Assembly: GCF_019704555.1 (NCBI RefSeq)
Contig: NZ_AP024745.1
Coordinates: 5,216,501 to 5,280,500, forward strand
Length of the DNA stretch: 64,000 bases
Direction of reading: 5' to 3'
From: Actinoplanes sp. L3-i22
GTDB taxonomy: Bacteria; Actinomycetota; Actinomycetes; Mycobacteriales; Micromonosporaceae
Numbering within the stretch: the first letter of the stretch is position 1; every line of letters starts with the position of its first letter. Position numbers and translations under genes: made by a program. A model generated the notes under the pieces. The model was not told the DNA's origin. It ran no database searches and saw nothing but the letters and a program-made list of their open reading frames with translations. Below are positions 1,294 to 58,558 of the stretch, piece after piece.

Positions 1294-2625
1294 ATGCGCC
1301 AACGCCGTTATATCGCCGCCGCCGCCCTGTGTACCGCGACCCTGTTGACCCTGACCGCCTGCGGGGGTGGCGGAACCTCGGCCGCCGGGGACGACGGCTC
1401 GCCGAAGACCGTGCCGAACACCCGCGGCGAGGGCAAGACGCTCACCGTCTGGGTGATGGACGGCGACTACACCGACGCCACCATCAAGGCGATCAACGAC
1501 CAGTTCACCCAGGCCACCGGTGCGCAGGTGGACGTGCAGATCCAGCAGTGGGAGAGCATCACCACCAAGATCAGCACGGCGTTGTCGACCAGCGGCACGC
1601 CGGACGTGCTGGACCTGGGCAACACGCAGGTGCCCGGCTTCGCGGCCAACGGCGGGCTGCTCGACCTGACGCCGTACGCGGATGATCTGCGGCAGGGCCG
1701 CAAGTGGCTCGCGGGTCTGGAGGAACCGGCGACGGTCGACAAGGCGCTCTACGCGGTGCCCGGTTTCGCCGGCGCCCGCGCGGTCATCTACAACAAGAAG
1801 ACCTGGGCCGCCGCCGGGGTCACCGCCGCGCCGACGACCTACGCCGAGCTCACCGCCGCGCTGGACAAGGTGAAGGCGGCCAACCCGGCCGCCGACTTCT
1901 CGCCGTTCTACCTGCCCGGGCAGTACTGGTACGCCGGCATGCAGTTCGTCTGGGACGCCGGCGGCGACATCGCCGCCAGCGACGGCGGTGCCTGGAAGGG
2001 CGGCTTCGCCAGCCCGGAGGCGCAGAAGGGACTGGCCGACTTCAAGACGTTCCAGAACACCTACTCCACCAAGGCGTCGCAGGCCATCGACACCATCACC
2101 CCGGACCAGAACCAGGTCTTCGCCGACGGCAAGACCGCGGCCATCCTGTCGACGGCCGGCTCCCTCGGTCTGATCCAGAAGGCCAACCCCAAGATCAAAA
2201 AAGACGATTTGGGTACGTTCCCGCTGCCCGGCGTGTCCGGAAAGGCGCAGCCCGTGATGCTCGGCGGCTCCGACTGGGGCATCGCCACCAAGAGCGACAC
2301 CCCGGAGCTGGCCCTGCAGTGGACCAAGATCGCCGCCAGCCCGACCGTGCAGGACAAGAACGTGTTCGGCAACGACGGCTGGATCCCGAACAGCACGCAG
2401 GGCATCGAGGCCGCCCAGCCCAGCCTGAACGAGCAGCAGAAGGGCTTCTTCACCGCGGCGCTGACCTCGAAGGCGACCCCGGCCGCCGCGCAGTGGCCGA
2501 CGCTCGAGGGCGACAAGAGCATCAACCAGGTGTTCTCCAACGTCGCCTCCGGCGCGAAGTCGCCCGCGGACGCCGCCAAGGAGTTCGACTCGCACCTCGA
2601 CAGCACGCTCGCCGGCGGTAAGTGA
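1294..2625 (+). CDS. Sugar ABC transporter substrate-binding lipoprotein
   Basis: The product has 443 residues. I start at ATG 1294 because GAAGGAG lies 7 bases upstream; the in-frame ATG at 1279 overlaps the previous stop and has no such site. The signal peptide ends in a lipobox (LTAC) followed by a Gly-rich linker. The body is a family 1 extracellular solute-binding protein (SBP_bac_1), of the type that captures oligosaccharides for MalF/MalG permeases. With GH20 downstream and GH19 nearby, N,N'-diacetylchitobiose or another GlcNAc oligosaccharide is the likely ligand, by analogy with DasA. Residues encoded near 2192-2217 use atypical AT-rich codons. Confidence 0.88.
   Translation: MRQRRYIAAAALCTATLLTLTACGGGGTSAAGDDGSPKTVPNTRGEGKTLTVWVMDGDYTDATIKAINDQFTQATGAQVDVQIQQWESITTKISTALSTSGTPDVLDLGNTQVPGFAANGGLLDLTPYADDLRQGRKWLAGLEEPATVDKALYAVPGFAGARAVIYNKKTWAAAGVTAAPTTYAELTAALDKVKAANPAADFSPFYLPGQYWYAGMQFVWDAGGDIAASDGGAWKGGFASPEAQKGLADFKTFQNTYSTKASQAIDTITPDQNQVFADGKTAAILSTAGSLGLIQKANPKIKKDDLGTFPLPGVSGKAQPVMLGGSDWGIATKSDTPELALQWTKIAASPTVQDKNVFGNDGWIPNSTQGIEAAQPSLNEQQKGFFTAALTSKATPAAAQWPTLEGDKSINQVFSNVASGAKSPADAAKEFDSHLDSTLAGGK
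2192..2217 (+). repeat. Dispersed AT-rich element, copy a
   Basis: AGATCAAAA at 2192-2200 is followed by GATTT and GGGTACG ending at 2217. It lies inside the binding-protein gene and encodes an AAA-rich Lys-Asp stretch that is unlike the flanking codon use. It resembles the other copies listed in the window. Confidence 0.45.
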
Positions 2626-3602
2626 CCGTCGTGCCCGCGACCACCGTTCTCAAGGATGCGGCCGGCACCACGCCGGCCGCACCACCCCCGCCCGCGCGGC
2701 GGCCCGGCCGGCGCCGGCGTGACCTGGCGCCGTTGTGGCTGCTCAGCCCGGCCGGCCTGGTGCTGGCCGTGGTCACGCTCGCGCCGATCGGCTTCCTGCT
2801 GTTCACCGCGTTCACCGACTACAACCAGCGGACGCTGTTCACCGGCAGGTACTCCTACGTCGGCTTCGACCAGTTCGGCGAACTGCTCGCGGACCCCGCG
2901 TTCTGGGCGTCGCTGCTGCGCACGGTGCTGTTCACCGCGGCGATGGTGGCCGGCAGCGTGCTGATCGGGATGGGCGTCTCGCACCTGCTCACCCGGCTCG
3001 GGCTGTGGATGCGCTACACCGTCACGGTCGTGCTGATCGTGGCCTGGGCGATGCCGAACGTGGCGTCGTCGCTGGTCTGGAACTGGCTGTTCCAGCCCGG
3101 CTACGGGATCGTCAACTGGGCACTGGACCAGCTCGGGATCTTCGGGGACACCACGGATCTGAACTGGGCACAGGACCCGACCCGGGCGTACATCGCGATC
3201 TGGTTCCTGATCGTCTGGCAGGCGGTGCCGTTCATCGCACTGACGCTCAACGCCGCCGAGACGCAGGTGCCCGTCGAGTACAAGGAGGCGGCCCGGCTGG
3301 ACGGCGCGACCGAGCGCGCGGTCTATCGGATCGTCGTGCTCAACCACCTGCGGCCCACCCTGCTGCTGGTCACCATCCTGTCGGTGATCTGGGACTACAA
3401 CGTCTTCAACCAGATCTGGCTGATCTCGCGCGGCGGGCCCGGCGACTCGACGTCGACGCTGGGCGTGTTCACCTACAAGACCGCGTTCGTCGGCTTCCAC
3501 ATCGGCCAGGGCGCGGCCATCTCGGTGGTCACCACGCTGCTGCTGCTCGGGCTGACCGCGTTCTACATCCGGCGCCTGCTGAAATCGGGGGAGGACCTGT
3601 GA
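2622..3602 (+). CDS. ABC sugar permease, MalF/UgpA type
   Basis: The product has 326 residues from a GTG whose first four bases overlap the binding-protein stop (GTGA), indicating translational coupling. A basic Pro-rich cytoplasmic N-terminus of about 40 residues precedes six transmembrane helices. The EAA loop is visible near residue 225 (EYKEAARLDGA). This is the first integral membrane subunit of a CUT1-type carbohydrate importer. No ATPase is encoded in the operon. Confidence 0.9.
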   Translation: MTVVPATTVLKDAAGTTPAAPPPPARRPGRRRRDLAPLWLLSPAGLVLAVVTLAPIGFLLFTAFTDYNQRTLFTGRYSYVGFDQFGELLADPAFWASLLRTVLFTAAMVAGSVLIGMGVSHLLTRLGLWMRYTVTVVLIVAWAMPNVASSLVWNWLFQPGYGIVNWALDQLGIFGDTTDLNWAQDPTRAYIAIWFLIVWQAVPFIALTLNAAETQVPVEYKEAARLDGATERAVYRIVVLNHLRPTLLLVTILSVIWDYNVFNQIWLISRGGPGDSTSTLGVFTYKTAFVGFHIGQGAAISVVTTLLLLGLTAFYIRRLLKSGEDL

Positions 3603-4426: not shown

Positions 4427-4434
4427 GTTCCACC

Positions 4435-6150: not shown

Positions 6151-6161
6151 GGGGACCACGC

Positions 6162-7382: not shown

Positions 7383-7390
7383 TTCCGCGT

Positions 7391-7420
7391 TGGGGGTACG
7401 GCGCTCACGCCGTACCCCCA
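7391..7420. terminator. Bidirectional hairpin terminator
   Basis: A perfect 13-bp stem (TGGGGGTACGGCG at 7391-7403, its complement at 7408-7420) encloses a 4-base loop and is followed on the plus strand by ATTAG and a T-rich run near 7431. It sits between the convergent six-hairpin and chitinase genes. Confidence 0.85.
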
Positions 7421-7441
7421 ATTAGGTGTTGATTTTTTCTT

Positions 7442-10558: not shown

Positions 10559-10580
10559 GGGCTGTCCCAGGAGCGGTCCT

Positions 10581-10670
10581 AGGAGCGGGTGGCCTAGGAG
10601 CGGGTGGCCTAGGAGCGGGTGGCCTAGGAGCGGGCGGCCCAGGACCGGGCGGCCCAGGACCGGGCGGCGG
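10581..10670 (+). repeat. Six tandem 15-bp units between two genes
   Basis: Units of AGGAGCGGGTGGCCT begin at 10581 and repeat every 15 bp. The first three are identical, and the last three drift to AGGACCGGGCGGCCC. A partial unit precedes at 10569. The tract lies between the stops of the convergent hydrolase and MarR genes. Confidence 0.85.
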
Positions 10671-10696
10671 GGGCGAGCCTCAGGAGGAGGAGGGGG

Positions 10697-11587: not shown

Positions 11588-11714
11588 CCGGCCGGACCGC
11601 CGTCCGCTCGGACCCGGTTGGCAGCGGAAGCGTGGTCGGGTGCGACCGATCCGAGGAAGGTTCGCGGCCCAGCAGTCGATCGACCCGCCCGGGCTGCTGG
11701 GTAGTGGAGGGGTC

Positions 11715-11879
11715 GGGCTGCCGGGTGGTGGGCGAGGCGGCCTGCCGGGTGGTGGGCGAGGCGGCCTGCCGGGTGGTGGGCGAGGCGGGCTGCCGGGTGG
11801 TGGGCGAGGCGGGCTGCCGGGTGGTGGGCGAGGCGGCCTACTGGGTGGTGGACGGGCCGGGCTACTGGGTGGACGGGGC
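11715..11879 (+). repeat. 24-bp tandem repeat tract running into the ROK stop codon
   Basis: Five near-identical units (starting 11715, 11739, 11763, 11787 and 11811) share the core CTGCCGGGTGGTGGGCGAGG. Two further units (11835 and 11859) are degenerate, with CTACTGGGTGG. The TAG of the ROK repressor (11862-11864 on the minus strand) falls inside the last degenerate unit. The plus strand would read as Gly-rich protein, but there is no supported gene there. Confidence 0.85.
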
Positions 11880-13082
11880 GGCGCGGCTCAGGACCAGGTC
11901 GTGGGCGGCGGTGAGGCCGGACGCGATCGCGCCGAGCAGCACCCCGTCGGTGCCCAGCGTGGAGACCTCGATCCGCGGCGGCCGCAGCGCGACCAGGCTG
12001 ACCAGCCGGTCCCGCAGCGGCCCGGTCAGCAGGTCACCGGCGTGCCCGCCGAGGCCGCCGCCGAGGACGACCAGTTCCGGGTCGAGGACCGCGGTCACCC
12101 CGGCCAGCGCCCGGCCCAGGTAGTCGATCTCCCGGTCGACGGTCTCCAGCGCGGCCGGGTCGCCGGCCCGGGCGGCGTCCAGCACCTCCTTGGCGGTGGT
12201 GGCGGAGAGCAGGCCGAGCCGCCGGGCGGTGGCGACGACCGCGCCGGCCGAGGCGACCGACTCGAAACCGCCGCGGCGGCGGGACTCCGGCTGGTCGAGC
12301 AGCGGGTCGCCGTCGCCGACCGGCAGGTAGCCGACCTCGCCGGCGGCGCCGCGGGCACCCCGGTACAGCTTGCCGTCGATCATGACGCCCATGCCGGTGC
12401 CGGTGCCGATCGAGACGAACACGAAGTGCCGGACGTCGCGGCCCAGGCCGTACCGGGCCTCGCCGATCGCCGCGAGGTTGGCGTCGTTCTCCACCACGTA
12501 CGTCGCCTTGGTGATGTCGCCGAGCTGGGTGAGGCTGTCGGGTCGTTCCCAGCCGGGCAGGTTCGGCGCGAGGTGCAGCGAGCCGTCGGACTTGTCGTGG
12601 ATGCCGGGGGTGCCGTAGACCGCCAGGGTGATGTCGGTGCGGGTGATGCCGGCGGCCGCGGCCAGCTCGTCGGCGAGCCTGGTGAGCTGGGCGACCAGGT
12701 CCTGGTCGGAGGAGCCGCGGGAGGGCTCCTCCTTGCGGGCGACGATGGTGCCGACCAGGTCGGCCAGGGCGGTGCGGACGAACGCCCGCCCGATGTCGAC
12801 GGCCAGGACATAGCCGGCCTCGGGGCACACCTCGTACAAAAGTGCTGATCTTCCTGCCGGGCCGGCCCGGCGGCCGACCTGCCGCAGTAGCCCGGCGTCC
12901 TCGAGGTTGTTGAGGGTGATGCCCACGGTCGGTTTGGACAGCCCGGTGATCCCGGCGAGTTCCGGGCGGGACGCCTTGCCCAGGCGGAAGACCTCGGCGA
13001 ACACGGCTCGCTCGTTCATCACCCGGAGGACGGCCGTGGTACTGGCGGTCGCACTGCTCTGCACGGGACCAGGCTGCCACAC
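11862..13082 (-). CDS. ROK-family transcriptional repressor (NagC/XylR type)
   Basis: About 406 residues from GTG 13082; GTG 13064 is equally possible. I reject the longer starts at 13121 and 13190 because they would place the operator palindrome inside the gene. The N-terminal HTH (KASRPELAGITGLSKPTVGITLNNLEDAGLL) precedes a ROK sugar-kinase fold with FVSIGTGTGMGV and GARGAAGEVGYL. The Cys cluster that binds zinc in ROK kinases is absent (PLLDQPESRRRGGFES in its place). It is divergent from the XylF-type operon and probably represses it until sugar binds. Confidence 0.88.
   Translation of the reverse strand: MWQPGPVQSSATASTTAVLRVMNERAVFAEVFRLGKASRPELAGITGLSKPTVGITLNNLEDAGLLRQVGRRAGPAGRSALLYEVCPEAGYVLAVDIGRAFVRTALADLVGTIVARKEEPSRGSSDQDLVAQLTRLADELAAAAGITRTDITLAVYGTPGIHDKSDGSLHLAPNLPGWERPDSLTQLGDITKATYVVENDANLAAIGEARYGLGRDVRHFVFVSIGTGTGMGVMIDGKLYRGARGAAGEVGYLPVGDGDPLLDQPESRRRGGFESVASAGAVVATARRLGLLSATTAKEVLDAARAGDPAALETVDREIDYLGRALAGVTAVLDPELVVLGGGLGGHAGDLLTGPLRDRLVSLVALRPPRIEVSTLGTDGVLLGAIASGLTAAHDLVLSRAAPSTQ
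12833..12851 (-). repeat. Dispersed AT-rich element, weak copy
   Basis: Read on the minus strand, AGATCAGCACTTTTGTACG forms an AT-rich island in the ROK gene. It uses AGA, TCA, CTT and TTG codons that are rare in this genome. The two ends resemble the dispersed element, but the match is partial. Confidence 0.3.
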
Positions 13083-14248: not shown

Positions 14249-14979
14249 TGCTCTCCGCCAGCCACGTCTCCAAGCGCTACGGCGCGGTCCAGGCTCTCGA
14301 CGACGTGAGCCTGGACCTGGCCCCCGGCGAGGTCGTCGCCCTGGTCGGCGACAACGGCGCCGGCAAGTCCACCCTGGTCAAAGTGCTCTCCGGGGTGGTC
14401 ATTCCGGATCAAGGTCAACTTCAGAAAGACGATTCGCCGGTACGGATGAGCACACCGCACGACGCGCAACAGCTGGGCATCGCCACCGTCCACCAGGACC
14501 TGGCCCTGTGCGAGAACCTCGACGTGGTCGCCAACCTGTTCCTCGGCGCGGAACGTTCCCGCTGGTCGGTGCTGCGCCCGATCCGGATGGAACGCGCCTC
14601 GCGGGACCTGCTGACCTCGCTCGACGTGCGGATCCGGGACATCCGGGTGCCGGTGGCGATGCTCTCCGGCGGGCAGCGCCAGTCGGTGGCCATCGCCCGG
14701 GCCCTGGTCGCCGACCCGAGCGTGGTCATCCTGGACGAGCCGACGGCCGCGCTCGGCGTCGAGCAGACCGCCCAGGTCCTCGACCTGATCCGGCGCCTGC
14801 GCGACCACGGCCTGGCCGTGCTGGTCATTTCCCACAACCTTGCCGACGTACGGGCGGTCAGCGACCGCATCGTCGTCCTGCGACTGGGCCGCAACGCCGG
14901 GGAGTTCCGGACCGCCGAGTCCACCCCGGAGGCAGTCGTCGCCGCCATCACCGGATCCAGCACGGGAGACATCGCATGA
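14248..14979 (+). CDS. Sugar ABC transporter ATP-binding protein, single domain
   Basis: The product has 243 residues from a GTG overlapping the previous TAG by one base. It has Walker A GDNGAGKST, the signature LSGGQ, Walker B VVILDEPT and the switch His in VISHN. XylG and RbsA normally carry two ATPase domains in about 500 residues; this protein has one, so it should work as a homodimer (FrcA type). It energises import with the adjacent binding protein and permease. An AT-rich island encodes QGQLQKDDSPVRM in the region after Walker A. Confidence 0.92.
   Translation: MLSASHVSKRYGAVQALDDVSLDLAPGEVVALVGDNGAGKSTLVKVLSGVVIPDQGQLQKDDSPVRMSTPHDAQQLGIATVHQDLALCENLDVVANLFLGAERSRWSVLRPIRMERASRDLLTSLDVRIRDIRVPVAMLSGGQRQSVAIARALVADPSVVILDEPTAALGVEQTAQVLDLIRRLRDHGLAVLVISHNLADVRAVSDRIVVLRLGRNAGEFRTAESTPEAVVAAITGSSTGDIA
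14407..14445 (+). repeat. Dispersed AT-rich element, copy b
   Basis: GATCAAGGTCAAC at 14407 leads through an AAAGAC segment to GATTCGCCGGTACGG ending at 14445. It sits in frame in the ATPase gene at a point where homologues vary in sequence. Confidence 0.45.
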
Positions 14980-16124
14980 CGGCGCTGGCGCGCTTACGCC
15001 GTACCGAAATCGGATCTTGGCCCGTGGTCCTGGGTTTGGTCTTGATCGCGATCGTGTTCGGCTCGCTGAACGACCGGTTCCTGTCCGCCGAGAACCTCAC
15101 CAACCTGGCCCTGCAGATGGCCGCGACCGGCACGATCTCGCTCGGCATCATCATGGTCGTGCTGCTCGGCGAGATCGACCTGTCGGCCGGCTCGGTCAGC
15201 GGCCTGGCCGCGGTGATCATGACGATCCTGTCGGTCAACCACGGCTGGAACCCGCTCGCCGCGATCGTGGTGGCGCTGGCCGGCGCGGCGCTGATCGGGC
15301 TGCTGCACGGGTGGATGTTCACCCGGCTCGGCATGCCGTCGTTCGTCGTCACGCTCGCCGGGCTGATCGGCTGGCAGGGGCTGATGCTGTACCTGCTGGG
15401 CAGCGGCGGGACGATCAACCTGCCGTTCGACGGGTTCGTCGCCACCCTCAGCGACACCTGGCTGGCCACGCCGGTCGCCTGGCTGATCGTGGTCCTGATC
15501 GTCGGCGTCCGCACCGCGAGTGCGCTGATCACCCGCCGCCTGCGGATCGCCGCGGACCTGCCGGTCACGTCCACGATCCGGACCGCGCTGGGCCTCGGCG
15601 GGCTCGCGATCGCGCTGGCCGCCGTCGTGCTGATCCTGTCCGCCGACCGCGGCGTCCCGCTCCTGCTGATCATCTTCGCGACCCTGGTGGTCGGGCTGGA
15701 CCTGGTCCTGCAGCACACGCTGTTCGGCCGGCACATGTACGCGGTCGGCGGCAACGCCGAGGCGGCCCGGCGCGCGGGCATCAACGTCACCCGGATCCGG
15801 CTGATCGCGTTCGCCGCCAGCTCCACCCTGGCCGCCGCCGGTGGCATCCTGGCCGCCAGCCGGCTGGCCGCGGTCAACCAGAGCTCCGGCAGCAGCGACA
15901 CCCTGCTGATGGCGATCGCCGCGGCGGTGATCGGCGGCACCTCGCTGTTCGGCGGGCGCGGCCGGGCCTACGCCGCGCTGCTCGGCATCGTCGTCATCCA
16001 GGCGATCACCAACGGCATGCTGCTGCTCAACGTGGACTCGTCGGTGCGTTACATGGTGACCGCCGCGGTGCTGGCCGTCGCCGTCGCGCTGGACTCCCTG
16101 GCCCGCCGGGGCCAGCCCCGATGA
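14976..16124 (+). CDS. XylH/RbsC-type sugar ABC permease
   Basis: The product has 382 residues; its ATG overlaps the ATPase stop by four bases. Around ten transmembrane segments, the motif GEIDLSAGSVSGL and the late GGTSLFGGRGR are typical of the BPD_transp_2 (CUT2) permease family. It forms the channel for the XylF-type lipoprotein. The first 20 codons are interrupted by an AT-rich island (CGTACCGAAATCGG). Confidence 0.92.
   Translation: MTALARLRRTEIGSWPVVLGLVLIAIVFGSLNDRFLSAENLTNLALQMAATGTISLGIIMVVLLGEIDLSAGSVSGLAAVIMTILSVNHGWNPLAAIVVALAGAALIGLLHGWMFTRLGMPSFVVTLAGLIGWQGLMLYLLGSGGTINLPFDGFVATLSDTWLATPVAWLIVVLIVGVRTASALITRRLRIAADLPVTSTIRTALGLGGLAIALAAVVLILSADRGVPLLLIIFATLVVGLDLVLQHTLFGRHMYAVGGNAEAARRAGINVTRIRLIAFAASSTLAAAGGILAASRLAAVNQSSGSSDTLLMAIAAAVIGGTSLFGGRGRAYAALLGIVVIQAITNGMLLLNVDSSVRYMVTAAVLAVAVALDSLARRGQPR
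14999..15018 (-). repeat. Dispersed AT-rich element, copy c
   Basis: On the minus strand this reads AAGATCCGATTTCGGTACGG. It lies near the start of the permease gene in the orientation opposite to the gene, and GATCAAGACC follows further out at 15038-15047 on the same strand. Confidence 0.45.
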
Positions 16125-23502: not shown

Positions 23503-24576
23503 TCATTCCGGGTTCGAGCGGTTCAGGACATGGACGCCGGCGGCGTACCGGAGCAGGTCGGCGTCGCTGATGGTGAGGCCGCCGCCGACGGTGATCTGCA
23601 GCGTCGCGTCCCAGTCGGGGACGTCGACCGCCAGCGTCACCTCACCGGTCCGGCGGGTCAGCACGGCGTCGCGCCCGCCGACCTTCCGGTTGACGCCGCT
23701 GAGCTGCTGCCGTTTGCGCAGCACGGTGGCGAACCCGCCGGCGCCGGGCGCCGCCGCCGGCGACCGGAAGACCATCCGGGACGCGCTGACCTCGTCGGTC
23801 ACCGTCGCGGCCGGGCTCAGATCAAGATCAAAAGGCGGCGGTACGGCGACCGCCCCGCCCGTCATCGCGTCGGCCAGCGCGACCACCTGGTCCGGCGTGT
23901 AGGTGTCGTCGGTGGCCAGCTGGATCCACCGGCTCGACGACTCCTTCCAGTAGAGGGTGAGCTGCTTGGCGGGCGTCGCGTCCACCGTCCGCAGCGTGCC
24001 GGCGTGCCCGCGCACCTGCCGCGCCGTCTCACCGGCGGCGGTGCCGAACGTCGGTTTGCGCGCCGAGACGGTGATCGTGACGTCCGCGTGGTGCTGCAGC
24101 TCGGTCGCCTCGAAGAACGCGACCGGGTTGCCGCCGCTCATCGAGCCGACCGGCGCGCTCATCCCGTCGGTGGCCGGCAGGGTGTAGGGGAACGTCGGCG
24201 CCTTCCAGCCCGCGGTCAGCGTCACCGTGCCGGTCCCGGCCGCGGACTTCGCCGATGACGACGTGACCTGGCTCGACGGCCGGCTGCGCGCCGAGGCGGC
24301 GGGCGACGGGGCCGCGCTGGTCGGGGTCAGCGGCACGACCGGGGCCGACGCGGCCGGCGGCGTGGTGTGCTGCGGCCGGCCGGTGAGCACGGTCAGGATC
24401 GGGACGGCGGCGGCCACCACGGCCACGGCGGCGGCCACCGCGGTCAGCGTGGCGACCCGCCGCCGGCGGTAGCGACGGGAGCGCCCGTGCACGTCGGCGA
24501 GCAGTCCCACACCTGCGGGGGCCTGGCCGGCGGCGTCGTGCATGGTCTCCGCGAGTATCCGGTTCAGGTCATCCAT
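23503..24576 (-). CDS. Membrane-anchored partner of the ECF sigma factor (putative anti-sigma or CU044-like protein)
   Basis: The product has 357 residues. A short cytoplasmic N-terminus (MDDLNRILAETMHDAAGQAP) leads to RRYRRRRVATLTAVAAAVAVVAAAVPILTVLTG, one membrane helix at about 40-65. A Ser/Thr/Pro-rich linker and an extracytoplasmic domain follow. It overlaps the sigma-factor gene by 8 bp, the arrangement of many actinobacterial SigE-family sigma and sensor pairs. No zinc-binding anti-sigma motif (HxxxCxxC) is visible, so regulation of the sigma factor is inferred from position. Confidence 0.7.
   Translation of the reverse strand: MDDLNRILAETMHDAAGQAPAGVGLLADVHGRSRRYRRRRVATLTAVAAAVAVVAAAVPILTVLTGRPQHTTPPAASAPVVPLTPTSAAPSPAASARSRPSSQVTSSSAKSAAGTGTVTLTAGWKAPTFPYTLPATDGMSAPVGSMSGGNPVAFFEATELQHHADVTITVSARKPTFGTAAGETARQVRGHAGTLRTVDATPAKQLTLYWKESSSRWIQLATDDTYTPDQVVALADAMTGGAVAVPPPFDLDLSPAATVTDEVSASRMVFRSPAAAPGAGGFATVLRKRQQLSGVNRKVGGRDAVLTRRTGEVTLAVDVPDWDATLQITVGGGLTISDADLLRYAAGVHVLNRSNPE
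23819..23846 (+). repeat. Dispersed AT-rich element, copy d
   Basis: AGATCAAGATCAAAA (23819-23833) is followed by GGCGGC and GGTACGG ending at 23846. It lies in the membrane-partner gene opposite to its coding direction and encodes PPPFDLDL with unusual TTT, GAT and CTT codons. Confidence 0.5.
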
Positions 24577-26159: not shown

Positions 26160-26231
26160 CGGGGGTGACTCCTCGGTTGCCGGGGGAAGGTTCCTCCCTC
26201 TGAACGCGATGGGCGGGCGCGTCTGCTGCTG

Positions 26232-26274
26232 CCGTACCGAATAATTTTTGTGTTTCTTTGCCTGTCTTGATCTT
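26232..26274 (-). repeat. Dispersed AT-rich element, copy e, intergenic
   Basis: On the minus strand it runs from AAGATCAAGACAGG to ATTCGGTACGG with a very AT-rich middle (ACACAAAAATTA). It lies between the GH114 start and the NemR-like operator, so here it may form part of the GH114 promoter. Confidence 0.5.
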
Positions 26275-33647: not shown

Positions 33648-33672
33648 AGATCAAAACCTTTTCCGCCGTACG
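33648..33672 (+). repeat. Dispersed AT-rich element, weaker copy f, intergenic
   Basis: AGATCAAAA (33648-33656) is followed by CCTTTTCCGCCGTACG. It lies in the LLM-AKR divergent spacer just before the AKR ribosome-binding site (AAGGA). The right end reads GTACGACG instead of GTACGG. Confidence 0.35.
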
Positions 33673-33688
33673 ACGTAAGGACGGAACC

Positions 33689-34672
<984 letters not shown>

Positions 34673-36632: not shown

Positions 36633-37366
36633 AGTGCCTTCTCCGAGTGGTGGACGAGGGTGTGCAGCAGGAAGCCGATGCGCCGGTCGAGCTCGTCGGC
36701 GACGCGCTCGAACGCCGATGGCTCGCCGGGGGCGGCGGCCGGGTCCGCGATGCTCCAGTGCGCCGGTCGCCGGTGGCCGGGGAACTCGGGACAGACCTCC
36801 TTGACCCGGTCGCACAGGGTGATCACGTGCTCGAATCGCTGCCCGGCGAACGTGTCGAGGTGTTTGGGACGGGCGGCGGACAGGTCGATGCCGCGGGCGG
36901 CCAGGGTGCTCACCGCGTACGGATGAATCGGTTTGGGTTTGCTCCCGGCGCTGACCGCCCGCACGGACCCGGCGGTGCGGGCGGTCAGCAGCGCCTCGGC
37001 CATCTGCGAGCGCGAACTGTTGCCCGTGCAGAGGAACAGCACCCGCCCAGTGACCGGCCCGGCGGGTGCCGGCCGGGTGAGTCGCAGCCCGGGGTGCAGC
37101 GTGGCGCCGGCGCCGGACAGCAGGTCGCCGCACCGGGTCAGGTCGAGGGAGTAGTAGCTGTCCCGGCCGTCCGCGCTGCTGCGCCGGGCGGTCACCAGCT
37201 CGGCCTTGCGCAGCTTGCCCAGGTGATAGGAGACGAGGTTCTGCGGCTGGCCGAGCAGCGCGGTCAGCTCGTGCACGGCGAGGTCGCCGCGGGCCAGCTC
37301 GGTGAGCAGCCGCCACCGGACCGGATGCCCGGCGGCGGTCACGAACCCGGGCGCCGCTGCCGTCAT
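36629..37366 (-). CDS. ArsR-ArsC fusion: HTH repressor joined to a low-molecular-weight phosphatase/arsenate reductase
   Basis: The product has 245 residues. Residues about 8-85 are an ArsR winged helix (VHELTALLGQPQNLVSYHLGKLRKAELVTARR). Residues about 108-240 are an LMW-PTPase/arsenate reductase domain with the P-loop VLFLCTGNSSRSQMAEALL and a downstream Cys pair region (VITLCDRVKEVCPEF). The fusion couples sensing to reduction of arsenate. An 18-bp palindrome sits just upstream of its start. It heads the operon with the VOC and ChrA-type genes. Confidence 0.9.
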   Translation of the reverse strand: MTAAAPGFVTAAGHPVRWRLLTELARGDLAVHELTALLGQPQNLVSYHLGKLRKAELVTARRSSADGRDSYYSLDLTRCGDLLSGAGATLHPGLRLTRPAPAGPVTGRVLFLCTGNSSRSQMAEALLTARTAGSVRAVSAGSKPKPIHPYAVSTLAARGIDLSAARPKHLDTFAGQRFEHVITLCDRVKEVCPEFPGHRRPAHWSIADPAAAPGEPSAFERVADELDRRIGFLLHTLVHHSEKAL

Positions 37367-48405: not shown

Positions 48406-50556
48406 TCAAGAAGGGCTCACCGGGAGGCGGACCAGCACGAGCGTGCCGCCCGCCGGGGACGCGCCGATGTGCGCCGTGCCGCCCAGCTCGGTGGCCCGCT
48501 CGCGGATGCCGGTCAGGCCGACCCCGGCCCGGTAGCGGGCCGGCAGCCCGCACCCGTCGTCGCCGATCTCCAGCGAGAGCGCGTCCGGCCCGCGTCCGAG
48601 CCGCACGACGCACTCGCTCGCCCGGGCGTGCCGGACCACGTTGGTGATCGACTCCGAGACGATGTGGTACGCCGCGACCTCGACCGCCGCCGGCAGCGGC
48701 TCGATCTCGCCGTCGGCGTGCACGGTCACCTCCACGGCGCCGGCGCTCAGATGCTGGGCGCGTTCACGCAGCGCGGCCACCAGCCCGAGCTGGTCGAGCG
48801 CCGGCGGACGCAGGCCGTGCACCAGCCGCCGTACGTCGGAAAGCGCCTGCCGATGGGTGCCGGCCAGCCCCGCGAAGATCTCCGACGCCCGGTCCGGATC
48901 GGCCGGCAGCAGCGCGAGAGCCAGTTCGAGGCTCATCCCGGCGGAGGCCAGCGTCGGCCCGAGCCCGTCGTGGATGTCGCGCCGCAGCCGCCGGCGCTCC
49001 TCCTCCAGGGCGGTCACCGTCCGCTCCAGCGAGCGCTGCAACCGGGTGGTCAGCAGCAGGTTGTGGGCGGTCGCGCCGACCTGCCGGGCGAGCACGTCGA
49101 GCAGCCGCGAGTCGCGCGCCCCGAACGGCTCCTGGCGCGGCCCGGGGTCGAGCACCAGCCGGCCGATCTCCTCGCCCTGATGCACCAGCGGCAGTTCGAG
49201 CGGCCGGCCGGACGGGCGCCCGTGCGAGAACGAGGGCAGATCCAGGCCGTCGACCTCGATCGCCACGTACGACAGCCGCAGCGTCCGGGCCAGCGTCTCG
49301 ACCAGCCGGGCCAGCACCGACTCGACCGAGCCGGCCGACTCCAGGCGCTGACCCAGCACGGTCAGCACCTCGTACGGATCGTCCCGCGACCCGTAGACCA
49401 GCCGCCCCACCACCCGCCGCAGATACCGCTGGGTGGGCGAGAACGCGAGCGCGACCACCGCCGCGACCAGCACGCTCTTGCCGGCCCCGAGCGCCGTGGC
49501 CACCACCAGATACGCGGTCATCAGCCCGGCCGTCACCAGCCCCTGGACCAGCGGGCGGCGCAGCACGACCTGGATGTCGAAGAGCCGGTAGCGCAGCACG
49601 GCCAGCGCGAGCGCGACCGGGAACGGCGCGAACCCGACGGTGGTCAGCACGTTCCAGGGCAGCAGCGGGCGGCCGATCACCCACTCGGGGATCCGGCCCA
49701 GGAGCATGTACAGCACGGCGCCGGCGCCGAACGCGTACACCGACAACCGCATCCGCCCACGCGCCTCGGGCCCGCTCAGGCGGTAGCCGGCCAGGAACGC
49801 GGCGGCGATCAGGAACGGAAAGACGTTGGCGGCCGGTGTGGACAGCGAGACGAGCACCCGCCGGTCGAGCGGGTCCGCGGTGAGCACCGCGCCGGCGTAG
49901 AGCAGCGGCGGCAGCAAGTACCCGGCGAGGACCACCGCCCGCCGCGGCGCCCGGCGCGGCCACGGCGCCGGGAAGACCGTCGCGAAGTGCAGCAGCACCG
50001 ACCAGAGCAGGCAGGACGCCACCTCGCCGAGCATGTCCGGCCACAATCGCCCGGTGGCCACGTCGACGATCTGGTTCGAGTACGGGAAGGCCAGGCTGGA
50101 CAGGAACAGCAGCAACCCCATCGCGTACAGGGTGCGGGCCGCCGGATCCCGCGGACGCCGCACGATGACGAACGCGCAGACCGCCCACATCCCCACCCAG
50201 AACGGCACCGTCCACAGGTTGTCCCGCAGGAACTCCAGGAACGGGTACCGGTGCAGCGTCACCGGCACGTTCAGGATCTGCTCGTGGCGGGTCACCGTGT
50301 AGGTCAGCGTGTCCCCGAAGCCGAACGACGGCTGCACCCGCGTCACCGGGACCCCGTTCACCGCCGTCACCAGGTCCCCGGCGTGCAGCGGCCCGGCGGA
50401 CTCGGTCACCACCAGCCCCGCGGCGGACCAGCTCGCCGCGCTCGGGCGGGTCAGCGCGCCGTCGGCGGGCGCGAGCATGCGCACGGCGAGCACCAGACCC
50501 GCCGGGACCACCCACGCCGCGTACGCTGCCGCCCGTACCAAAGCCCGATTTTTCAC
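48406..50556 (-). CDS. ComP-like sensor histidine kinase with an extracytoplasmic PDZ-like loop
   Basis: The product has 716 residues from GTG 50556. A first membrane helix is followed by a PDZ-like segment (AAGLVVTESAGPLHAGDLVTAVNGVPVTRV, about 45-75), then some seven helices to about residue 350. A GAF-like domain (about 380-500) and a HisKA_3 dimerisation domain with His in RRDIHDGLGPTLA near 527 follow, ending in HATPase_c (ITNVVRHARASECVV, GDDGCGLP). The layout matches Bacillus ComP. It is divergent from its probable response regulator by 33 bp. Confidence 0.9.
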   Translation of the reverse strand: MKNRALVRAAAYAAWVVPAGLVLAVRMLAPADGALTRPSAASWSAAGLVVTESAGPLHAGDLVTAVNGVPVTRVQPSFGFGDTLTYTVTRHEQILNVPVTLHRYPFLEFLRDNLWTVPFWVGMWAVCAFVIVRRPRDPAARTLYAMGLLLFLSSLAFPYSNQIVDVATGRLWPDMLGEVASCLLWSVLLHFATVFPAPWPRRAPRRAVVLAGYLLPPLLYAGAVLTADPLDRRVLVSLSTPAANVFPFLIAAAFLAGYRLSGPEARGRMRLSVYAFGAGAVLYMLLGRIPEWVIGRPLLPWNVLTTVGFAPFPVALALAVLRYRLFDIQVVLRRPLVQGLVTAGLMTAYLVVATALGAGKSVLVAAVVALAFSPTQRYLRRVVGRLVYGSRDDPYEVLTVLGQRLESAGSVESVLARLVETLARTLRLSYVAIEVDGLDLPSFSHGRPSGRPLELPLVHQGEEIGRLVLDPGPRQEPFGARDSRLLDVLARQVGATAHNLLLTTRLQRSLERTVTALEEERRRLRRDIHDGLGPTLASAGMSLELALALLPADPDRASEIFAGLAGTHRQALSDVRRLVHGLRPPALDQLGLVAALRERAQHLSAGAVEVTVHADGEIEPLPAAVEVAAYHIVSESITNVVRHARASECVVRLGRGPDALSLEIGDDGCGLPARYRAGVGLTGIRERATELGGTAHIGASPAGGTLVLVRLPVSPS
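50533..50553 (-). repeat. Dispersed AT-rich element, partial copy g
   Basis: On the minus strand, AAAAATCGGGCTTTGGTACGG covers the right half of the element at the very start of the kinase gene. It is close to the right half of copy h in the P450 gene. The left AGATCA block is missing. Confidence 0.35.
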
Positions 50557-50589
50557 CGACGCACCCACCGCGACCCCGGGAGCCGAGAG

Positions 50590-52058: not shown

Positions 52059-53254
52059 TCACCGAGCTGGCGTCGCCCCCGGCCTGGCCGGTCCTGGGAC
52101 ACCTGCCCGCGCTGGCCCGCGGCGGGCGCCCGCACCGCGTCCTCGAGGACTGGTGCGACCGCTACGGCACGACGTACCGGCTGCGCCTGCCGTCCGGCCC
52201 CGCCGTGGTCACCGCCGACCCGAAGATCGTGCACACCGTCCTGCGTGGCCGGCCCCGCCTGTTCCGCCGCGATCCGCATATCACCCGCACCATCGAGGCG
52301 ACCGGCGTGCACGGCGTCTTCACCGCCGAGGGCACCCGCTGGCACGCCGACCGCCGGGCCGCCAACGACCTGCTCGACCGGGACCCGCTTGCCGCGGTCC
52401 TGCGTTCGGTCACCCGCCTGCGCCGGCGCTGGCTGGCCGCAGATCAAAATCCGCTTTCGGTACGGGTGATGCCCGACCTGACCCGGCTGAGCCTCGACGT
52501 CACCCTGGCCGTGACCACCGGCCGGGACCTCAACGCGCTCGACCACCCGGACGGCCCGTTGCCGACGCTCGTCCCACGCCTGTTCCCAGCGATCCACCGG
52601 CGGATCAACGCGCCGTTCCCGCTGCCCCGCGACCGCCGGCTGGAGAGCCTGCTCCGCTCGGCCCGCGAACTGCTGCCGGACGTGCACTTCGGAACCGTGC
52701 TCACGCTGCTGCTGGCCGGCGAGGACACCACGGCCGCGGCCGCCGGGTGGGCGCTGTACTACCTGGCCACGCACCCGGAGGAGCATGCCCGGGTGCGCGC
52801 CGAGGCGGACGGGGGCGAGCTGTCGGAGGTGGGCCGGCTGCGGTACGCGCAGGCCGTCGTCCGGGAAGCGCTGCGGCTGCGCCCGCCGGCCTCGCTGACC
52901 GTGGTCGAGGCGATCGAGGAGACCGAGCTGCTCGGTGACGGCGTGCTGCTGCGCGCGGCTCCCGGCCTGCCGATCTGGGTGCTGCTGGCCTACGGCGCCC
53001 GTCGCTTCCCGGACGCGGCGTCGTTCCGCCCGTCCCGCTGGCTCACCGAGCGGATCCCGGAGAACACGCTCTACCTGCCGTTCGGCGGCGGCCCGCGGGT
53101 CTGCCCGGGCCGCAACCTGGCCATGCTGACCGCCACCCTGGTCGTCGCCATGGCCGCCCGCGACTTCGACCTGCGCGCCGACGGCACCCCGCGCGAGCGG
53201 GTCGCCTTCACCGTCCACCCCGACCGGCTGGCGCTGACCCTCACCCCTCGGTAG
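52055..53254 (+). CDS. Cytochrome P450
   Basis: The product has 399 residues from GTG 52055, overlapping the SARP stop by four bases. The I-helix oxygen-binding motif is LLAGEDTTAAAAGW (about 226-240), the K-helix motif is EALRL, and the haem loop FGGGPRVCPGRNLA carries the Cys ligand near residue 349. No ferredoxin or reductase gene is adjacent. Coupling to a SARP gene suggests a tailoring hydroxylase or fatty-acid-type monooxygenase. Residues encoded near 52441 use atypical codons. Confidence 0.93.
   Translation: MITELASPPAWPVLGHLPALARGGRPHRVLEDWCDRYGTTYRLRLPSGPAVVTADPKIVHTVLRGRPRLFRRDPHITRTIEATGVHGVFTAEGTRWHADRRAANDLLDRDPLAAVLRSVTRLRRRWLAADQNPLSVRVMPDLTRLSLDVTLAVTTGRDLNALDHPDGPLPTLVPRLFPAIHRRINAPFPLPRDRRLESLLRSARELLPDVHFGTVLTLLLAGEDTTAAAAGWALYYLATHPEEHARVRAEADGGELSEVGRLRYAQAVVREALRLRPPASLTVVEAIEETELLGDGVLLRAAPGLPIWVLLAYGARRFPDAASFRPSRWLTERIPENTLYLPFGGGPRVCPGRNLAMLTATLVVAMAARDFDLRADGTPRERVAFTVHPDRLALTLTPR
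52441..52465 (+). repeat. Dispersed AT-rich element, copy h
   Basis: AGATCAAAATCCGC is followed directly by TTTCGGTACGG, the most compact copy with both blocks. It lies in frame in the P450 gene, where it encodes ADQNPLSVRV with GCA, CAA, AAT and CTT codons that are rare in this gene. Confidence 0.5.
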
Positions 53255-53264
53255 CCCGCGCCGG

Positions 53265-53885: not shown

Positions 53886-53933
53886 CAGCGCTGCTGGACG
53901 CCCCGACCGCCTGGCGCTGACCCGCGCCCCTCG

Positions 53934-54110
53934 TCAGTCCTCGTCCTCGTCCGGCTGCGGTGGATTGACCGGCAGGCCGGCGGCCGCCAGGAACGCCTCC
54001 AGCGTCGCCGCGAGCGCGTCGACCCGGTCGTCCTCGACGAACGCGAACCCGTGATCGGCCATCAGGCAGGCGACAGCGGTCGCGATGCCCTTGGGCGTGG
54101 TGGTCGTCAT
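53934..54110 (-). CDS. Small acidic hypothetical protein (58 residues)
   Basis: The reverse strand encodes MTTTTPKGIATAVACLMADH... ending in PDEDED. AGGAGG lies 5 bases before the ATG at 54110, an unusually strong site, and the ATG overlaps the TGA of the upstream gene by four bases. These two signals support a real gene despite its size. No family is recognised; the C-terminus is strongly acidic. Confidence 0.7.
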   Translation of the reverse strand: MTTTTPKGIATAVACLMADHGFAFVEDDRVDALAATLEAFLAAAGLPVNPPQPDEDED

Positions 54111-54376
54111 CGGTTCCTCCTGGGGGGTTGGTGTGCCATGCGCAGGCCGTCGACCTGCACGAACAGCGATCTTCGCGCCACCGCGTCACCCGCGGCGTCG
54201 AGCTGGTACCCGTCGAGCCAGACCCAGCCGGCGTAGGTCTGCCAGTCGTGCACCCGGATCACCCGGAACAGGATCGGCGAGAGGAACTGCACGCTCGCGG
54301 CCCTCCCGACGACCAGCACCTCGCCGGACCGAGGGAGCGCGTTCACGTCCCGGCCCGCCGACCGTCGAGGCACCAT
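54107..54376 (-). CDS. Small hypothetical protein, coupled to the 58-residue gene
   Basis: About 89 residues from the ATG at 54376; GTG 54346 (VNALPRSGEVLVVGRAASVQFL) is equally plausible. The sequence predicts a beta-rich fold (SVQFLSPILFRVIRVHDWQTYAGWVWLDGYQLDAAG). I cannot name it. It forms a two-gene unit with the 58-residue protein and faces away from the TPR regulator gene, 400 bp off. Confidence 0.65.
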   Translation of the reverse strand: MVPRRSAGRDVNALPRSGEVLVVGRAASVQFLSPILFRVIRVHDWQTYAGWVWLDGYQLDAAGDAVARRSLFVQVDGLRMAHQPPRRNR

Positions 54377-54776
54377 TCCGCCTCCGGCGGCCAAGACCCG
54401 AACTGCTTCCCGCGTACGTCCATTGCCGGCGTCTCATCCCGTGTCGAAGTATTCGGATCGCCGCCGCCTGACGTCGTTGCCCACGATCGCGGCGGTGTGT
54501 ATCGACAGTGCCGATACGCCCGCGGGATCGGTAGGACCACGCTGGGGACGCAGCCCGTACCTCACCGGGTACCTACCGCGCCGGCAACGGCTTGACCTGC
54601 GGGGCAGACCCCTTCGGCCGGGTCACCCGGATCAGCGAGTCCACGGTGGGGTCCCATCCTGAGCGGTCCGTGCCGAATGCGTTGAGATCGCTGGATTCGG
54701 GTGCCACCCTTGGCCGATACCTGCGGCGCGAGGTATTGCGGCTTTCTCGTTCTGCCGCTGCGAAGGGAGGTCCAGC
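54377..54776. other. Intergenic region between the small gene pair and the TPR regulator
   Basis: This 400-bp divergent spacer has slightly lower GC than its surroundings and no supported gene. TATCG...CGATA (about 54498-54514) is a small inverted repeat and could be a regulator site. GAAGGGAGG near 54762 is the ribosome-binding site of the following gene. Confidence 0.4.
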
Positions 54777-56081: not shown

Positions 56082-56088
56082 GAGCGTT

Positions 56089-56964: not shown

Positions 56965-57002
56965 CGACGGCGGCCGGCCCGGTGAGCTGCGGCAATGGCT
57001 GG

Positions 57003-57746
57003 TCAGATGGTGAAGCCGCCGTCGACGTTGAGGGTGGCGCCGGTGATGTAGCCGGCGTCCGGGCCGGCCAGGAACGCTACCGCGGCGGCGATGTCGGCCG
57101 GTGCCGCGTAGTGGCCCAGGGCGGTGAAGCCGTTGACGGTGGCGGCGTCCGGGCCGTCGGCCGGGTTCAACTCGGTGTCGGTGGGGCCCGGGTTGACCAG
57201 GTTGACGGTGATTCGCCGGCCGCCGAGTTCGCGGCCGAGGGCCTTGGTCAGGCCGGTCAGCGCGGTCTTGCTCATCGCGTAGAGGGCGAAGCCGGGGAAG
57301 ACCGCCCGTTCGGCCACGTTGCTGCCGATGTTGATGATCCGGCCGCCGGCCGGCATGTGGCGCACCGCGGACTGCGAGGCGACGAACGGCGCCCGGACGT
57401 TGACCGCCACGGTCTGCTCGAACTCGTCCAGGCCGAGTTGCCCGATCGGCCCGAGCAGGAACGAGCCGGCGTTGTTGACCAGGATGTCCAACCGGCCGAG
57501 CTGGTCGAACGCACGGTCGACGGCGGCGACGACCGCGGCCGGGTCGGCGCTGTCCGCCCGTACCGAAATCGCTTGTCGCCCCAAGGTTTTGATCTGGTCC
57601 ACCACGTCGTCGGCGCGTTGCTGATTCCGCTGGAAGGTGAGGGCCACGTCGGCGCCCTCCTCGGCCAGGCGCAGTGCCACGGCGGCGCCGATGCCGCGCC
57701 CGCCGCCGGTGACGAGAGCTACCTTGCCGTCAAGTGCGTTGGTCAT
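57003..57746 (-). CDS. Short-chain dehydrogenase/reductase
   Basis: The product has 247 residues from the ATG at 57746, which overlaps the CPBP gene by four bases. Classical SDR motifs are all present: TGGGRGIG for NAD(P), NNAG, Ser in NIGSNVAERA, YAMSK with the catalytic Tyr and Lys, and NPGPTDTE. The C-terminal GATLNVDGGFTI is typical of FabG-like enzymes. The Arg after the Gly-rich region (FQRNQQRA) suggests NADPH. Physiological substrate unknown. Confidence 0.93.
   Translation of the reverse strand: MTNALDGKVALVTGGGRGIGAAVALRLAEEGADVALTFQRNQQRADDVVDQIKTLGRQAISVRADSADPAAVVAAVDRAFDQLGRLDILVNNAGSFLLGPIGQLGLDEFEQTVAVNVRAPFVASQSAVRHMPAGGRIINIGSNVAERAVFPGFALYAMSKTALTGLTKALGRELGGRRITVNLVNPGPTDTELNPADGPDAATVNGFTALGHYAAPADIAAAVAFLAGPDAGYITGATLNVDGGFTI
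57558..57595 (-). repeat. Dispersed AT-rich element, copy i
   Basis: On the minus strand, AGATCAAAACC leads through a GC-rich middle to GCGATTTCGGTACGG. It is in frame in the SDR gene and encodes IKTLGRQAISVR with ATT, TCG, GTA and CAA codons unlike the flanks. Confidence 0.5.
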
Positions 57747-58558
57747 GCCGGAATCCTCGGCGACGCCGGATCGGCTGTCTGGCGGTGATCGGACGCCGCG
57801 TTGCCGCGCCGGGCGCGGTGGGCGACGACCAGCAGGGTCAGGATGATCATGGCGGGGATGTACTGCCAGCCGCCGCTGACCGCGGCCATCGACCCGGCGG
57901 CGTTGAACGAGGCGTGCAGCAGCGCGACCGCCAGGATGCTGCCGCCGGTGTCGACCAGCAGCGTGCCGATCAGGTAGCGCAAGAACGGCGCGGCCAGCGT
58001 GAGCAGCGCCAGGTCGAGGCCGGCCGCGCGCCAGGTCGTGTGCGCCCAGCCGTCCGCGGCGAAGATCAGCGGCAGGTGGATGAGCAGGAACGGCACGGCG
58101 GTGCGCAGCGATCCGGCGAGCAGCCCGTGCCGGGCCATCAGCCGGCTCTGCACGAACCCCGACCACGCGGTCTCCTCCCAGAGGTTCCCCAGCAGAACAC
58201 CGAAGATCAAAGTCATGAAGAGGTACGTCGTGACCAGCTTGAGCCACCCGCCGTCGGGCTGCCGCAGCGTCCCGGTGAGCGCGGCGACCAGCAGCGTCAG
58301 GGCCGGCATGGCCGCGAGCAGGACGGCATACCGGCCGGCCCCGAGCCGCCATCGGGTGATGCCGGCGTAGAGGCGGCGCACCCCGGCCCGGCCCTGGGTG
58401 TACGCCGTGATCGCGGTCGCGCCGCCCAGCAGGAACACCAGTTCGGCCAGCAGGGCCGGGGTCAGGTCGGCCCCGTTGAGCAGGAACGTCAGCTGGGTGG
58501 CCCAGGTCAGGCCGATTACGGTGACGAGGAAGACGCCGAGCGGGCGGGGATGGTTCAC
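57743..58558 (-). CDS. CPBP-family intramembrane metalloprotease
   Basis: The product has 271 residues from GTG 58558. About eight helices carry the Abi/CPBP motifs EETAWSGFVQSRL (motif 1, EE), HLPLIF (motif 2 His) and LLHASFNAAG (motif 3 His). Members are related to Rce1 and often process or sequester membrane peptides, with roles in self-immunity. It is cotranscribed with the SDR gene and divergent from a two-component kinase gene. Confidence 0.88.
   Translation of the reverse strand: MNHPRPLGVFLVTVIGLTWATQLTFLLNGADLTPALLAELVFLLGGATAITAYTQGRAGVRRLYAGITRWRLGAGRYAVLLAAMPALTLLVAALTGTLRQPDGGWLKLVTTYLFMTLIFGVLLGNLWEETAWSGFVQSRLMARHGLLAGSLRTAVPFLLIHLPLIFAADGWAHTTWRAAGLDLALLTLAAPFLRYLIGTLLVDTGGSILAVALLHASFNAAGSMAAVSGGWQYIPAMIILTLLVVAHRARRGNAASDHRQTADPASPRIPA
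58204..58227 (+). repeat. Dispersed AT-rich element, weak copy k
   Basis: AGATCAAAGTCATG is followed by AAGAGGTACG. It lies in the CPBP gene, opposite to its coding direction, with TTG and ACT codons that stand out. The right end is GGTACGTCG rather than GGTACGG. Confidence 0.3.

Follow-up and report, generated by a model that had tools for sequence, protein, structure and literature searches.

Among described systems, the DNA uptake signals of Haemophilus (USS) and Neisseria (DUS) come closest to the motif described here; they are tags by which those bacteria tell kindred DNA from foreign. According to excerpts of PMC12616744, the USS consists of a 9-nt core and two AT-rich regions on one side of it, extends up to 32 nt and, in 150 genomes, ranges in density from 31 to 913 per Mb, with dialects between clades. 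The DUS numbers about 2,000; among its recent single copies many are too divergent for point mutation, and one-mismatch forms are common in Neisseria; the copies are conserved themselves yet located in permissive places (excerpts of PMC2397512). A third system is Gbn, a GATC-binding nucleoid protein of Streptomyces, which reads GATCWT and has thousands of sites (excerpts of PMC9239103).

The window analysed here is a 64-kb stretch of an Actinoplanes chromosome, in which an initial annotation had noticed dispersed islands that start with AGATCAA and end in a GGTACGG-like block. The islands themselves are real: AGATCAA occurs in 11 copies (shuffle mean 1.23, largest value 5 in 100 shuffles), AGATCAAA in six, and AGATCAAN{3,33}GGTACGG gives five matches, two of which overlap at one island, against a shuffle mean of 0.01. 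In the scan below, eight of the 11 islands named in the annotation exceed 12 bits. Their description by start and end held only in part. The exact AGATCAA is absent from the islands at 14407 and, on the minus strand, at 14999, 50533 and 12833, and the ends read GGTACGT at 2192 and 58204, CGTACGA at 33648 and TGTACGA at 12833. A better description is a single asymmetric motif of ~35 bp in fixed register, AAGATCAAAACCCnnTTTnSGTACGGCGTnAGCC, with the core SGTACG(G), of which the islands are copies. The A-tract, the T-tract and the GATCAA hexamers lie to the left of the core only. Across 308 sites, GATCAA peaks at positions -17 (24 matches), -23 (8) and -29 (3) relative to the core, and between -60 and -8 it was found 70 times in the orientation of the motif and three times reversed. 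The right arm is also informative, and by eye the motif forms an imperfect inverted repeat. The PWM used was trained on spacer sites only; an earlier PWM, iterated over genic matches, collapsed into codon periodicity and was dropped.

The PWM scan recovered strong instances in spacers at 26223..26257 (minus strand, 34.2 bits) and 33648..33682 (plus, 28.6 bits; upstream of an ORF beginning at 33689). Further instances lie at 14420..14454 (plus, 15.2 bits) in an ABC ATPase gene (14248-14979), at 50524..50558 (minus, 19.2 bits) at the start of a histidine kinase gene (48406-50511), at 52440..52474 (plus, 30.6 bits) in a cytochrome P450 gene (52055-53254), at 57549..57583 (minus, 13.2 bits) in a short-chain dehydrogenase (SDR) gene (57003-57746) and at 58203..58237 (plus, 25.0 bits) antisense in an Rce1-like protease gene (57743-58558). 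The instance at 14990..15024 (minus, 28.2 bits) is antisense at the 5' end of a permease gene (15024-16124); by our own gene call it falls just upstream of this gene, and indels adjoin the site in relatives. Three named islands were weak in the scan, namely 2193..2227 (plus, 9.6 bits) in a solute-binding protein gene (1279-2625), 12823..12857 (minus, 12.0 bits) in a ROK-family gene (11862-13064) and 23821..23855 (plus, 9.3 bits), antisense in gene 23503-24576. Conversely, six sites above 14 bits had not been listed before: 949..983 (minus, 15.7 bits; antisense within gene 371-1279), 7401..7435 (minus, 25.6 bits; spacer, with GGTACGGCGTGAGCGCCGTACC on its right side forming an inverted repeat), 36906..36940 (minus, 26.6 bits; sense in gene 36629-37342), 54394..54428 (plus, 16.6 bits; spacer), 62947..62981 (minus, 23.1 bits; spacer) and 63578..63612 (plus, 14.4 bits; spacer by our own gene call). 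An extra AGATCAA is found at 26267-26273, to the left of the instance at 26223..26257, and an additional AGATCAAAACC at 57585-57595 is out of register with the SDR instance.

Beyond the window, matrix counts covered 1.264 Mb (~10.5%) of the 12.0-Mb chromosome and exceeded those of the shuffled controls, whereas equal counts had been named beforehand as speaking against the repeat: 126 genic sites exceeded 14 bits, compared with 24.9 after codon shuffling (maximum 31 in 20 shuffles), and 97 spacer sites compared with 3.4 (maximum 8). The excess of ~155 per Mb extrapolates to ~1,850 copies per genome. An artefact of chance or codon usage would fit a few weak members below 10 bits (2192, 23819), at scores that shuffles also reach often (449 genic sites above 8 bits vs 250.5); given the codon- and spacer-shuffle controls at higher scores and only 0-10 strict matches in sampled genomes of other families in the class, its probability is negligible, and chance as an explanation for the whole motif set is already refuted. 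Because CTAG forms part of the reversed pattern, this control of the genome searches was weak, and the codon shuffles and other families were relied on instead. Cores with one mismatch were not in excess, either with a good left flank (54 vs ~54 expected) or with both flanks (11 vs ~9).

The distribution along the chromosome speaks against several known classes of short motif. KOPS, Chi, matS and Noc-type sites are short motifs tolerated in genes, as is the motif described here, and they are polar or regional, features that it does not show. The strict pattern GATCAAN{0,30}CGGTACGG is matched 131 times across the 12.0-Mb genome, 68 and 63 by strand, and the relaxed pattern AAAACCN{6,7}SGTACGG has 79, of which 39 are forward and 40 reverse, with at least two in each Mb; genic sites of the matrix set comprise 71 in sense and 55 in antisense orientation. 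Neither genome-wide pattern showed a clear strand or replichore bias, and a KOPS- or Chi-type polar motif was rejected for lack of the latter; matches of the relaxed pattern in every Mb gave no sign of restriction to ori or ter, and a matS- or Noc-type regional motif was likewise discarded. The strict form is sparser at the beginning, with 6 and 7 matches in the first and second Mb and 19 apiece in Mb 3-4 and Mb 4-5, the origin being placed at the contig start as inferred from GC skew and gene strands. Orientation relative to genes showed no preference in the first set, and a terminator, promoter or other RNA role was rejected on this ground; in tandem spacers of the matrix set there was a mild skew (30 opposite, 16 same orientation). 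Spacing between sites gave CVs of 1.13, 0.85 and 0.87 (null ~1.0). Among 14 adjacent pairs less than 300 bp apart, nine face each other, four stand back to back and one is in tandem; one facing pair, 5 bp apart, is probably a single site read on both strands. A separate 156-bp repeat was also seen, one copy of which gave no match in an Rfam scan.

The genic copies were compared with orthologues. They are clusters of substitutions, mostly with no change in length, and the site was free of gaps in seven of the eight genes compared (42 pairs), the exception being b1 154326 with 3-6 gapped positions. The suggestion that a miniature element is tolerated in coding sequence is therefore not supported for these copies. 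Rickettsia palindromic elements (RPEs), REP and MITE sequences are short repeats in spacers, RPEs also occurring inside genes. Unlike most genic copies compared here, they add length, and an inserted miniature repeat of this kind was rejected. In the P450 gene, 27 of 43 positions at the site differ from the single orthologue (G202), compared with 236 of 1153 elsewhere (p 5e-9). At the ABC ATPase site the difference is 19-20 of 43 positions, with no gap, against 12-14.5% elsewhere (three of three orthologues p<2e-6), and at the SDR site 13-18 of 43 against 12-16% (eight of eight orthologues used p<0.01). The motif is missing from all orthologues compared of these three window genes (21 for the SDR, 3 for the ABC ATPase and 1 for the P450), with none of the 21 SDR orthologues above 8 bits. 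The SDR, ABC and P450 copies look too diverged from their orthologues for point mutation. Some orthologues without the flank, L129 and L133 among them, already carry the GTACG core.

Such patches, specific to one lineage and with 13 to 27 bases altered at constant length, the pre-existing core in L129 and L133 and the sharp requirement for a core are also what a selfish or mobile short element would leave, if a cDNA or ssDNA template were copied onto GTACG-core sites and converted 20 to 40 bp. This explanation is unlikely, however, since residues are retained within the patches, interiors vary greatly between copies, and some orthologues keep the motif while its interior changes. Less probable still is a local mutational footprint, in which the DNA would be nicked or broken at GTACG(G) and then repaired on the left side in an error-prone, AT-biased way; it would account for an AT-rich stretch restricted to one flank of the core and for G to A changes on one strand, but random damage is not expected to produce a fixed register, GATCAA at -17 or an informative right arm, nor is the core GTA expected to be retained in orthologues.

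Retention across species was compared with a codon-substitution null. In five genes outside the window, 13 of 46 orthologue pairs retain the motif above the null (p<0.05; ~2 expected), the pairs not being independent because related species were compared, and four of 46 fall under it (p>0.95). Over all 70 scored pairs, 16 were worse than the null (p>0.95), 12 of them in the two window genes and four in the five outside it. At b3 90334, 25 orthologues averaged 4.2 bits, lower than the null of 5.5. Where the residue is the same, the core's rare GTA codon is retained in 34 of 61 cases, compared with 5 of 43 for GTA elsewhere in the same genes; for CGG the order is the opposite, with 24 of 62 retained in the core and 301 of 462 elsewhere. 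Only 10 of 73 orthologues have the complete GGTACGG, and the conserved part of the core looks to be GTACG alone, excluding the last G. In most genes the site region is frequently faster-evolving even where the motif is retained, so that part of the pattern may reflect a permissive stretch of the protein. The initial annotation had also asked whether orthologues lacking the DNA pattern conserve the same residues; the answer is mixed, as the SDR orthologue L129, which lacks the pattern, has 7 of 11 residues across the island (by eye), while other genes keep the DNA pattern in several species. In some genes the motif seems to be retained for its DNA letters, by some orthologues but not by others.

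We tentatively favour, at somewhat less than even confidence, a protein-recognised site that is kept by selection or drive at the DNA level and works like the uptake signals of Haemophilus and Neisseria. A protein would recognise the motif, and DNA bearing it would preferentially be taken up and recombined into the chromosome, so that copies accumulate and persist; the working principle would be that of USS and DUS, with a sequence of its own and perhaps clade variants. New copies would enter genes as short recombined patches, which would be why they look too diverged for point mutation, and natural selection would retain only those patches that leave the protein functional. In line with both signals, the motif is over-represented on both strands and in genes as well as spacers. 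Like the Pasteurellaceae USS, it is an asymmetric motif of ~30 bp with a short core and AT-rich tracts on one side, at ~155 per Mb; it differs in sequence and phylum, in the lack of a one-mismatch excess, in the series of GATCAA hexamers and in the informative right arm. With the Neisseriaceae DUS it shares the copy number (~2,000 there, ~1,850 extrapolated here) and recent copies that look too diverged for point mutation. The DUS, in contrast, is continuous, has the receptor ComP and has many one-mismatch relatives (excerpts of PMC12616744 and PMC2397512), and frequent relatives of this kind were not found for the motif.

The strongest competing reading is a nucleoid-associated or global DNA-binding protein specific to the family, whose sites would be selected for chromosome organisation; as a dimer or oligomer, it would recognise the imperfect palindrome GATCAAAATC-C-GATTTCGGTAC together with the GATCAA hexamers. 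This is possible, at a confidence not far below that of the uptake reading. A chromosome-structuring protein site predicts most of the same facts, among them the fixed register, the imperfect inverted symmetry and retention in some species, and strong selection would also give the observed absence of a one-mismatch excess. It does not readily explain, however, why a site midway through the SDR, ABC or P450 gene of a single species would be under strong selection, and sites occur in each Mb with no clear strand pattern. Gbn provides an actinobacterial precedent with thousands of GATC-containing sites, but itself reads GATCWT (excerpts of PMC9239103); here GATCAA is one optional part beside a fixed GTACG core, and a Gbn site was accordingly rejected. 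The initial proposal of binding by a nucleoid or replication factor fits DNA-level, fixed-register sites on both strands that some orthologues retain beyond codon expectation in several genes, whereas roles in replication polarity are unsupported, with no clear strand or replichore signal.

An estimated 1,850-copy motif that is partly maintained at the DNA level in genes is a considerable, still unexplained pressure on these genomes. As a protein-binding site, it would point to a novel chromosome-organising system in the family. If it is an uptake signal, regular, kin-biased natural transformation is predicted in large-genome, antibiotic-making actinomycetes of a natural-product-rich family, and the 35-mer offers a handle for testing this. 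ComEC was found in 20 of 20 genomes searched and a ComEA-like protein in the genome studied here only below the curated cut-off; the same searches also match in E. coli and therefore prove nothing about competence. Among the matches listed, the literature searched contained no uptake signal in Actinobacteria and, for the motif letters, Actinoplanes repeats, ChIP-seq or nucleoid studies and over-represented motifs, no description of the motif, nor do the excerpts of PMC5217627, PMC3364876 and PMC4322843 describe it. Searches for an Actinoplanes 'uptake sequence' or 'natural competence' in Micromonosporaceae found nothing, and the literature searched contained no account of natural transformation for the family.

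A more specific proposal, conceivable but with somewhat more reserve, is that Actinoplanes and its relatives possess their own recognition signal for DNA uptake or recombination, which would have clade dialects and a dedicated reader and, by the literature searched, may be the first of its kind in Actinobacteria. Among 250 Micromonosporaceae genomes covered, the strict form is elevated in several genera, with 131 matches in the genome studied here (G000), 118 in G202, 90 in G226 and 65-87 in genus g7, compared with 0-10 in 293 sampled genomes from other families or orders of the class. Measured with the G000 matrix, the excess is 165 per Mb in G000, 36 in G202 (400 kb), 61 in G210 and 63 in G238; the 400-kb stretch of G202 has little in common with G000. 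The most frequent distance from GATCAA to the core is 17 in G000 (25 of 94) and 16 in G210/G238 (16 of 56 typed), and g7 strings differ ahead of the core, the g7 and G210/G238 strings having been chosen by eye. The region 10.13-10.33 Mb of G210 aligns with contig 34 of G238 over two short blocks only. In 156 kb of aligned sequence between G238 and G210, at 94% identity, six of seven strict islands have both ends exact.

The AT-rich islands listed in the initial annotation are present in the window and occur above chance, but instead of the free ends described there, anchored alignment reveals a site of about 35 bp with a fixed register, in which A occupies positions -13 to -10 and T positions -6 to -2, ahead of the core SGTACG(G) and then CG(T/G)nAGCC. 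In a sample of 1.264 Mb (three 400-kb blocks plus the window, which spans 5,216,501-5,280,500 on the one 12.0-Mb contig; together about 10.5% of the Actinoplanes sp. L3-i22 genome, G000), TTCGGTACGG is the top 10-mer by z-score, with 39 occurrences versus 2.5 expected under an order-3 Markov model. The DNA 5' of GGTACGG is AT-rich (GC 0.64 versus 0.72) and the 3' side ordinary; five related 7-mers lack the AT-rich upstream region (GC 0.72-0.73). GATCAA is located at -17, with more copies at -23 and -29, and between -60 and -8 it is found 70 times in motif orientation and three times reversed. Given the fixed register and these positions, the variable spacer noted earlier can be traced both to repeats of the hexamer and to GATCAA lying out of register. 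Among sequences whose left flank is good, 141 have a perfect GTACG and 54, the background number, have one mismatch; with both flanks, the numbers are 99 (background about 0.7) and 11 (background about 9). Perfect cores are thus far above background and one-mismatch cores are at background, which means that sites with a broken core do not linger.

Abundance was determined using a matrix built from spacer sites alone, a threshold of 14 bits and gene calls from a simple in-house caller. The sample contains 126 genic sites versus a mean of 24.9 in 20 codon shuffles (maximum 31), and 97 spacer sites versus a mean of 3.4 after local shuffling (maximum 8). This leaves some 155 sites per Mb above expectation, which extrapolates from the sample to roughly 1,850 in the whole genome. 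The three blocks carry 54, 66 and 90 sites, and both strands are used (71 genic sites sense, 55 antisense). A sub-pattern with 79 matches (39 forward, 40 reverse) is present in every Mb of the genome. Spacer types roughly track length (convergent 22 versus 17.3 expected, divergent 29 versus 32.7, tandem 43 versus 44.0), with a mild skew in tandem spacers, where 30 sites oppose gene direction and 16 follow it. A polar or regional chromosome motif and an inserted repeat were ruled out by the tests made.

Copies in window genes appear as substitution blocks, with 27/43 positions changed in the P450, 19-20/43 in the ABC ATPase and 13-18/43 in the SDR gene; changes are significantly denser there than in the remainder of each gene, and the sites are ungapped. 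The copy at the permease start has adjoining indels. None of the orthologues compared exceeds 8 bits at the three substitution-block copies (SDR 0/21, ABC ATPase 0/3, P450 0/1), and against a null with codon replacements drawn from the same genes, 0/24 pairs from two window genes were better and 12/24 worse. In five non-window genes, 5/7, 3/4, 5/26, 6/8 and 2/4 orthologues exceed 8 bits, and 13/46 pairs were better (p<0.05) and 4/46 worse (p>0.95) than the codon null. Divergence of the site region nevertheless often exceeded that of the remaining gene (p<0.01), in 5/7, 1/4, 0/7, 5/8 and 3/4 pairs, respectively; sites therefore occupy, or create, fast-changing stretches. Each site seems to be either retained or missing. 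The rare GTA codon of the core is retained in 34/61 cases (same residue) versus 5/43 for GTA elsewhere. A simple retention reading is opposed by the intact GGTACGG in just 10/73 orthologues, by the following CGG codon, which is kept less often than CGG elsewhere (24/62 versus 301/462), and by interior A/T-ending codons, which are not retained above background (27/183 versus 19-20%). Between two genomes of 94% identity (156 kb aligned), 6/7 strict islands have both ends exact. Taken together, enrichment, gain and retention point to a force at the DNA level that puts copies where they are unlikely and retains many.

The strict pattern (GATCAA, a gap of 0-30 bases and a GTACGG-type core end), searched for within one class, has at least one match in 249/250 family genomes, with counts from 0 to 131. 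The highest counts are found in G000 (131) and its relatives G202 (118) and G226 (90), and all five genomes of one genus of the family, g7, have 65 to 87. In a class-wide draw of 296 genomes, all 293 non-family members have 0 to 10 matches. A stringent exact form matched one named record, Actinoplanes liguriensis, in a genome collection that may lack the genome of the window itself. Scored with the G000 matrix and the same shuffle, the excess is 165 per Mb in G000, above that in three relatives, G202 (36 per Mb, 400 kb), G210 (61, 440 kb) and G238 (63, 355 kb), a difference that may stem from sparser sites or from another dialect.

Among known systems, an uptake signal comes nearest in the way it works: judged from sequence, the motif resembles the Pasteurellaceae USS and the Neisseria DUS in architecture, abundance and mode of gain. 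According to PMC12616744, the USS extends over about 32 nt, has a short core with AT-rich regions on one side, occurs at 31-913 copies per Mb and comes in dialects, and PMC2397512 describes recent DUS copies diverged beyond point mutation and DUS that are conserved, yet placed in permissive positions. Nevertheless, the motif is not classed as USS or DUS, because one-mismatch forms are not found in excess, in contrast to the Neisseria DUS, and an uptake bias would here be putative. An uptake-signal-like function is proposed tentatively. The missing one-mismatch excess speaks for strong selection, which makes a nucleoid-protein site, itself doubtful, nearly as likely; a site for Gbn, the GATC-binding nucleoid protein of Streptomyces, was ruled out by the tests made. 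Actinobacterial transformation via Flp pili is described for Micrococcus luteus in PMC4322843; a literature search on Micromonosporaceae and natural competence found no report of natural transformation in the family. Profile searches identified ComEC genes and, in G000 only under the curated threshold, a ComEA-like match, which carry no weight as proof of uptake.

Facing pairs and inverted repeats occur among the motif copies, e.g., GGTACGGCGTGAGCGCCGTACC; examples are window 7401-7435, 159427/159456 in the second block (b2) and G238:C20:2663/2791, a pair kept in G210. Another dispersed repeat of about 156 bp has 14 copies in the 1.264 Mb, e.g., L050:12431-12586 (392431-392586 in the first block, b1), and several copies start with AAGATCAA(C/A)TTCAAGATC. 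It shares the GATCAA hexamer with the motif, the GTACGG core is absent in the copies inspected, and one copy had no match in Rfam. The window also contains tandem arrays of 24-bp (11666-11905) and 15-bp (10563-10682) units, and a stretch of about 200 bp (54140-54342) with 75-79% identity to many genomes of the genus, where a small ORF (54107-54346, minus strand) had no match in Pfam. A strong motif copy of 31.7 bits lies in the stretch G000:C1:1404121-1410260, inside a gene that we take to be DegV-like; the ComEC match lies about 5 kb away and the ComEA-like match about 4 kb away, which may be a coincidence.
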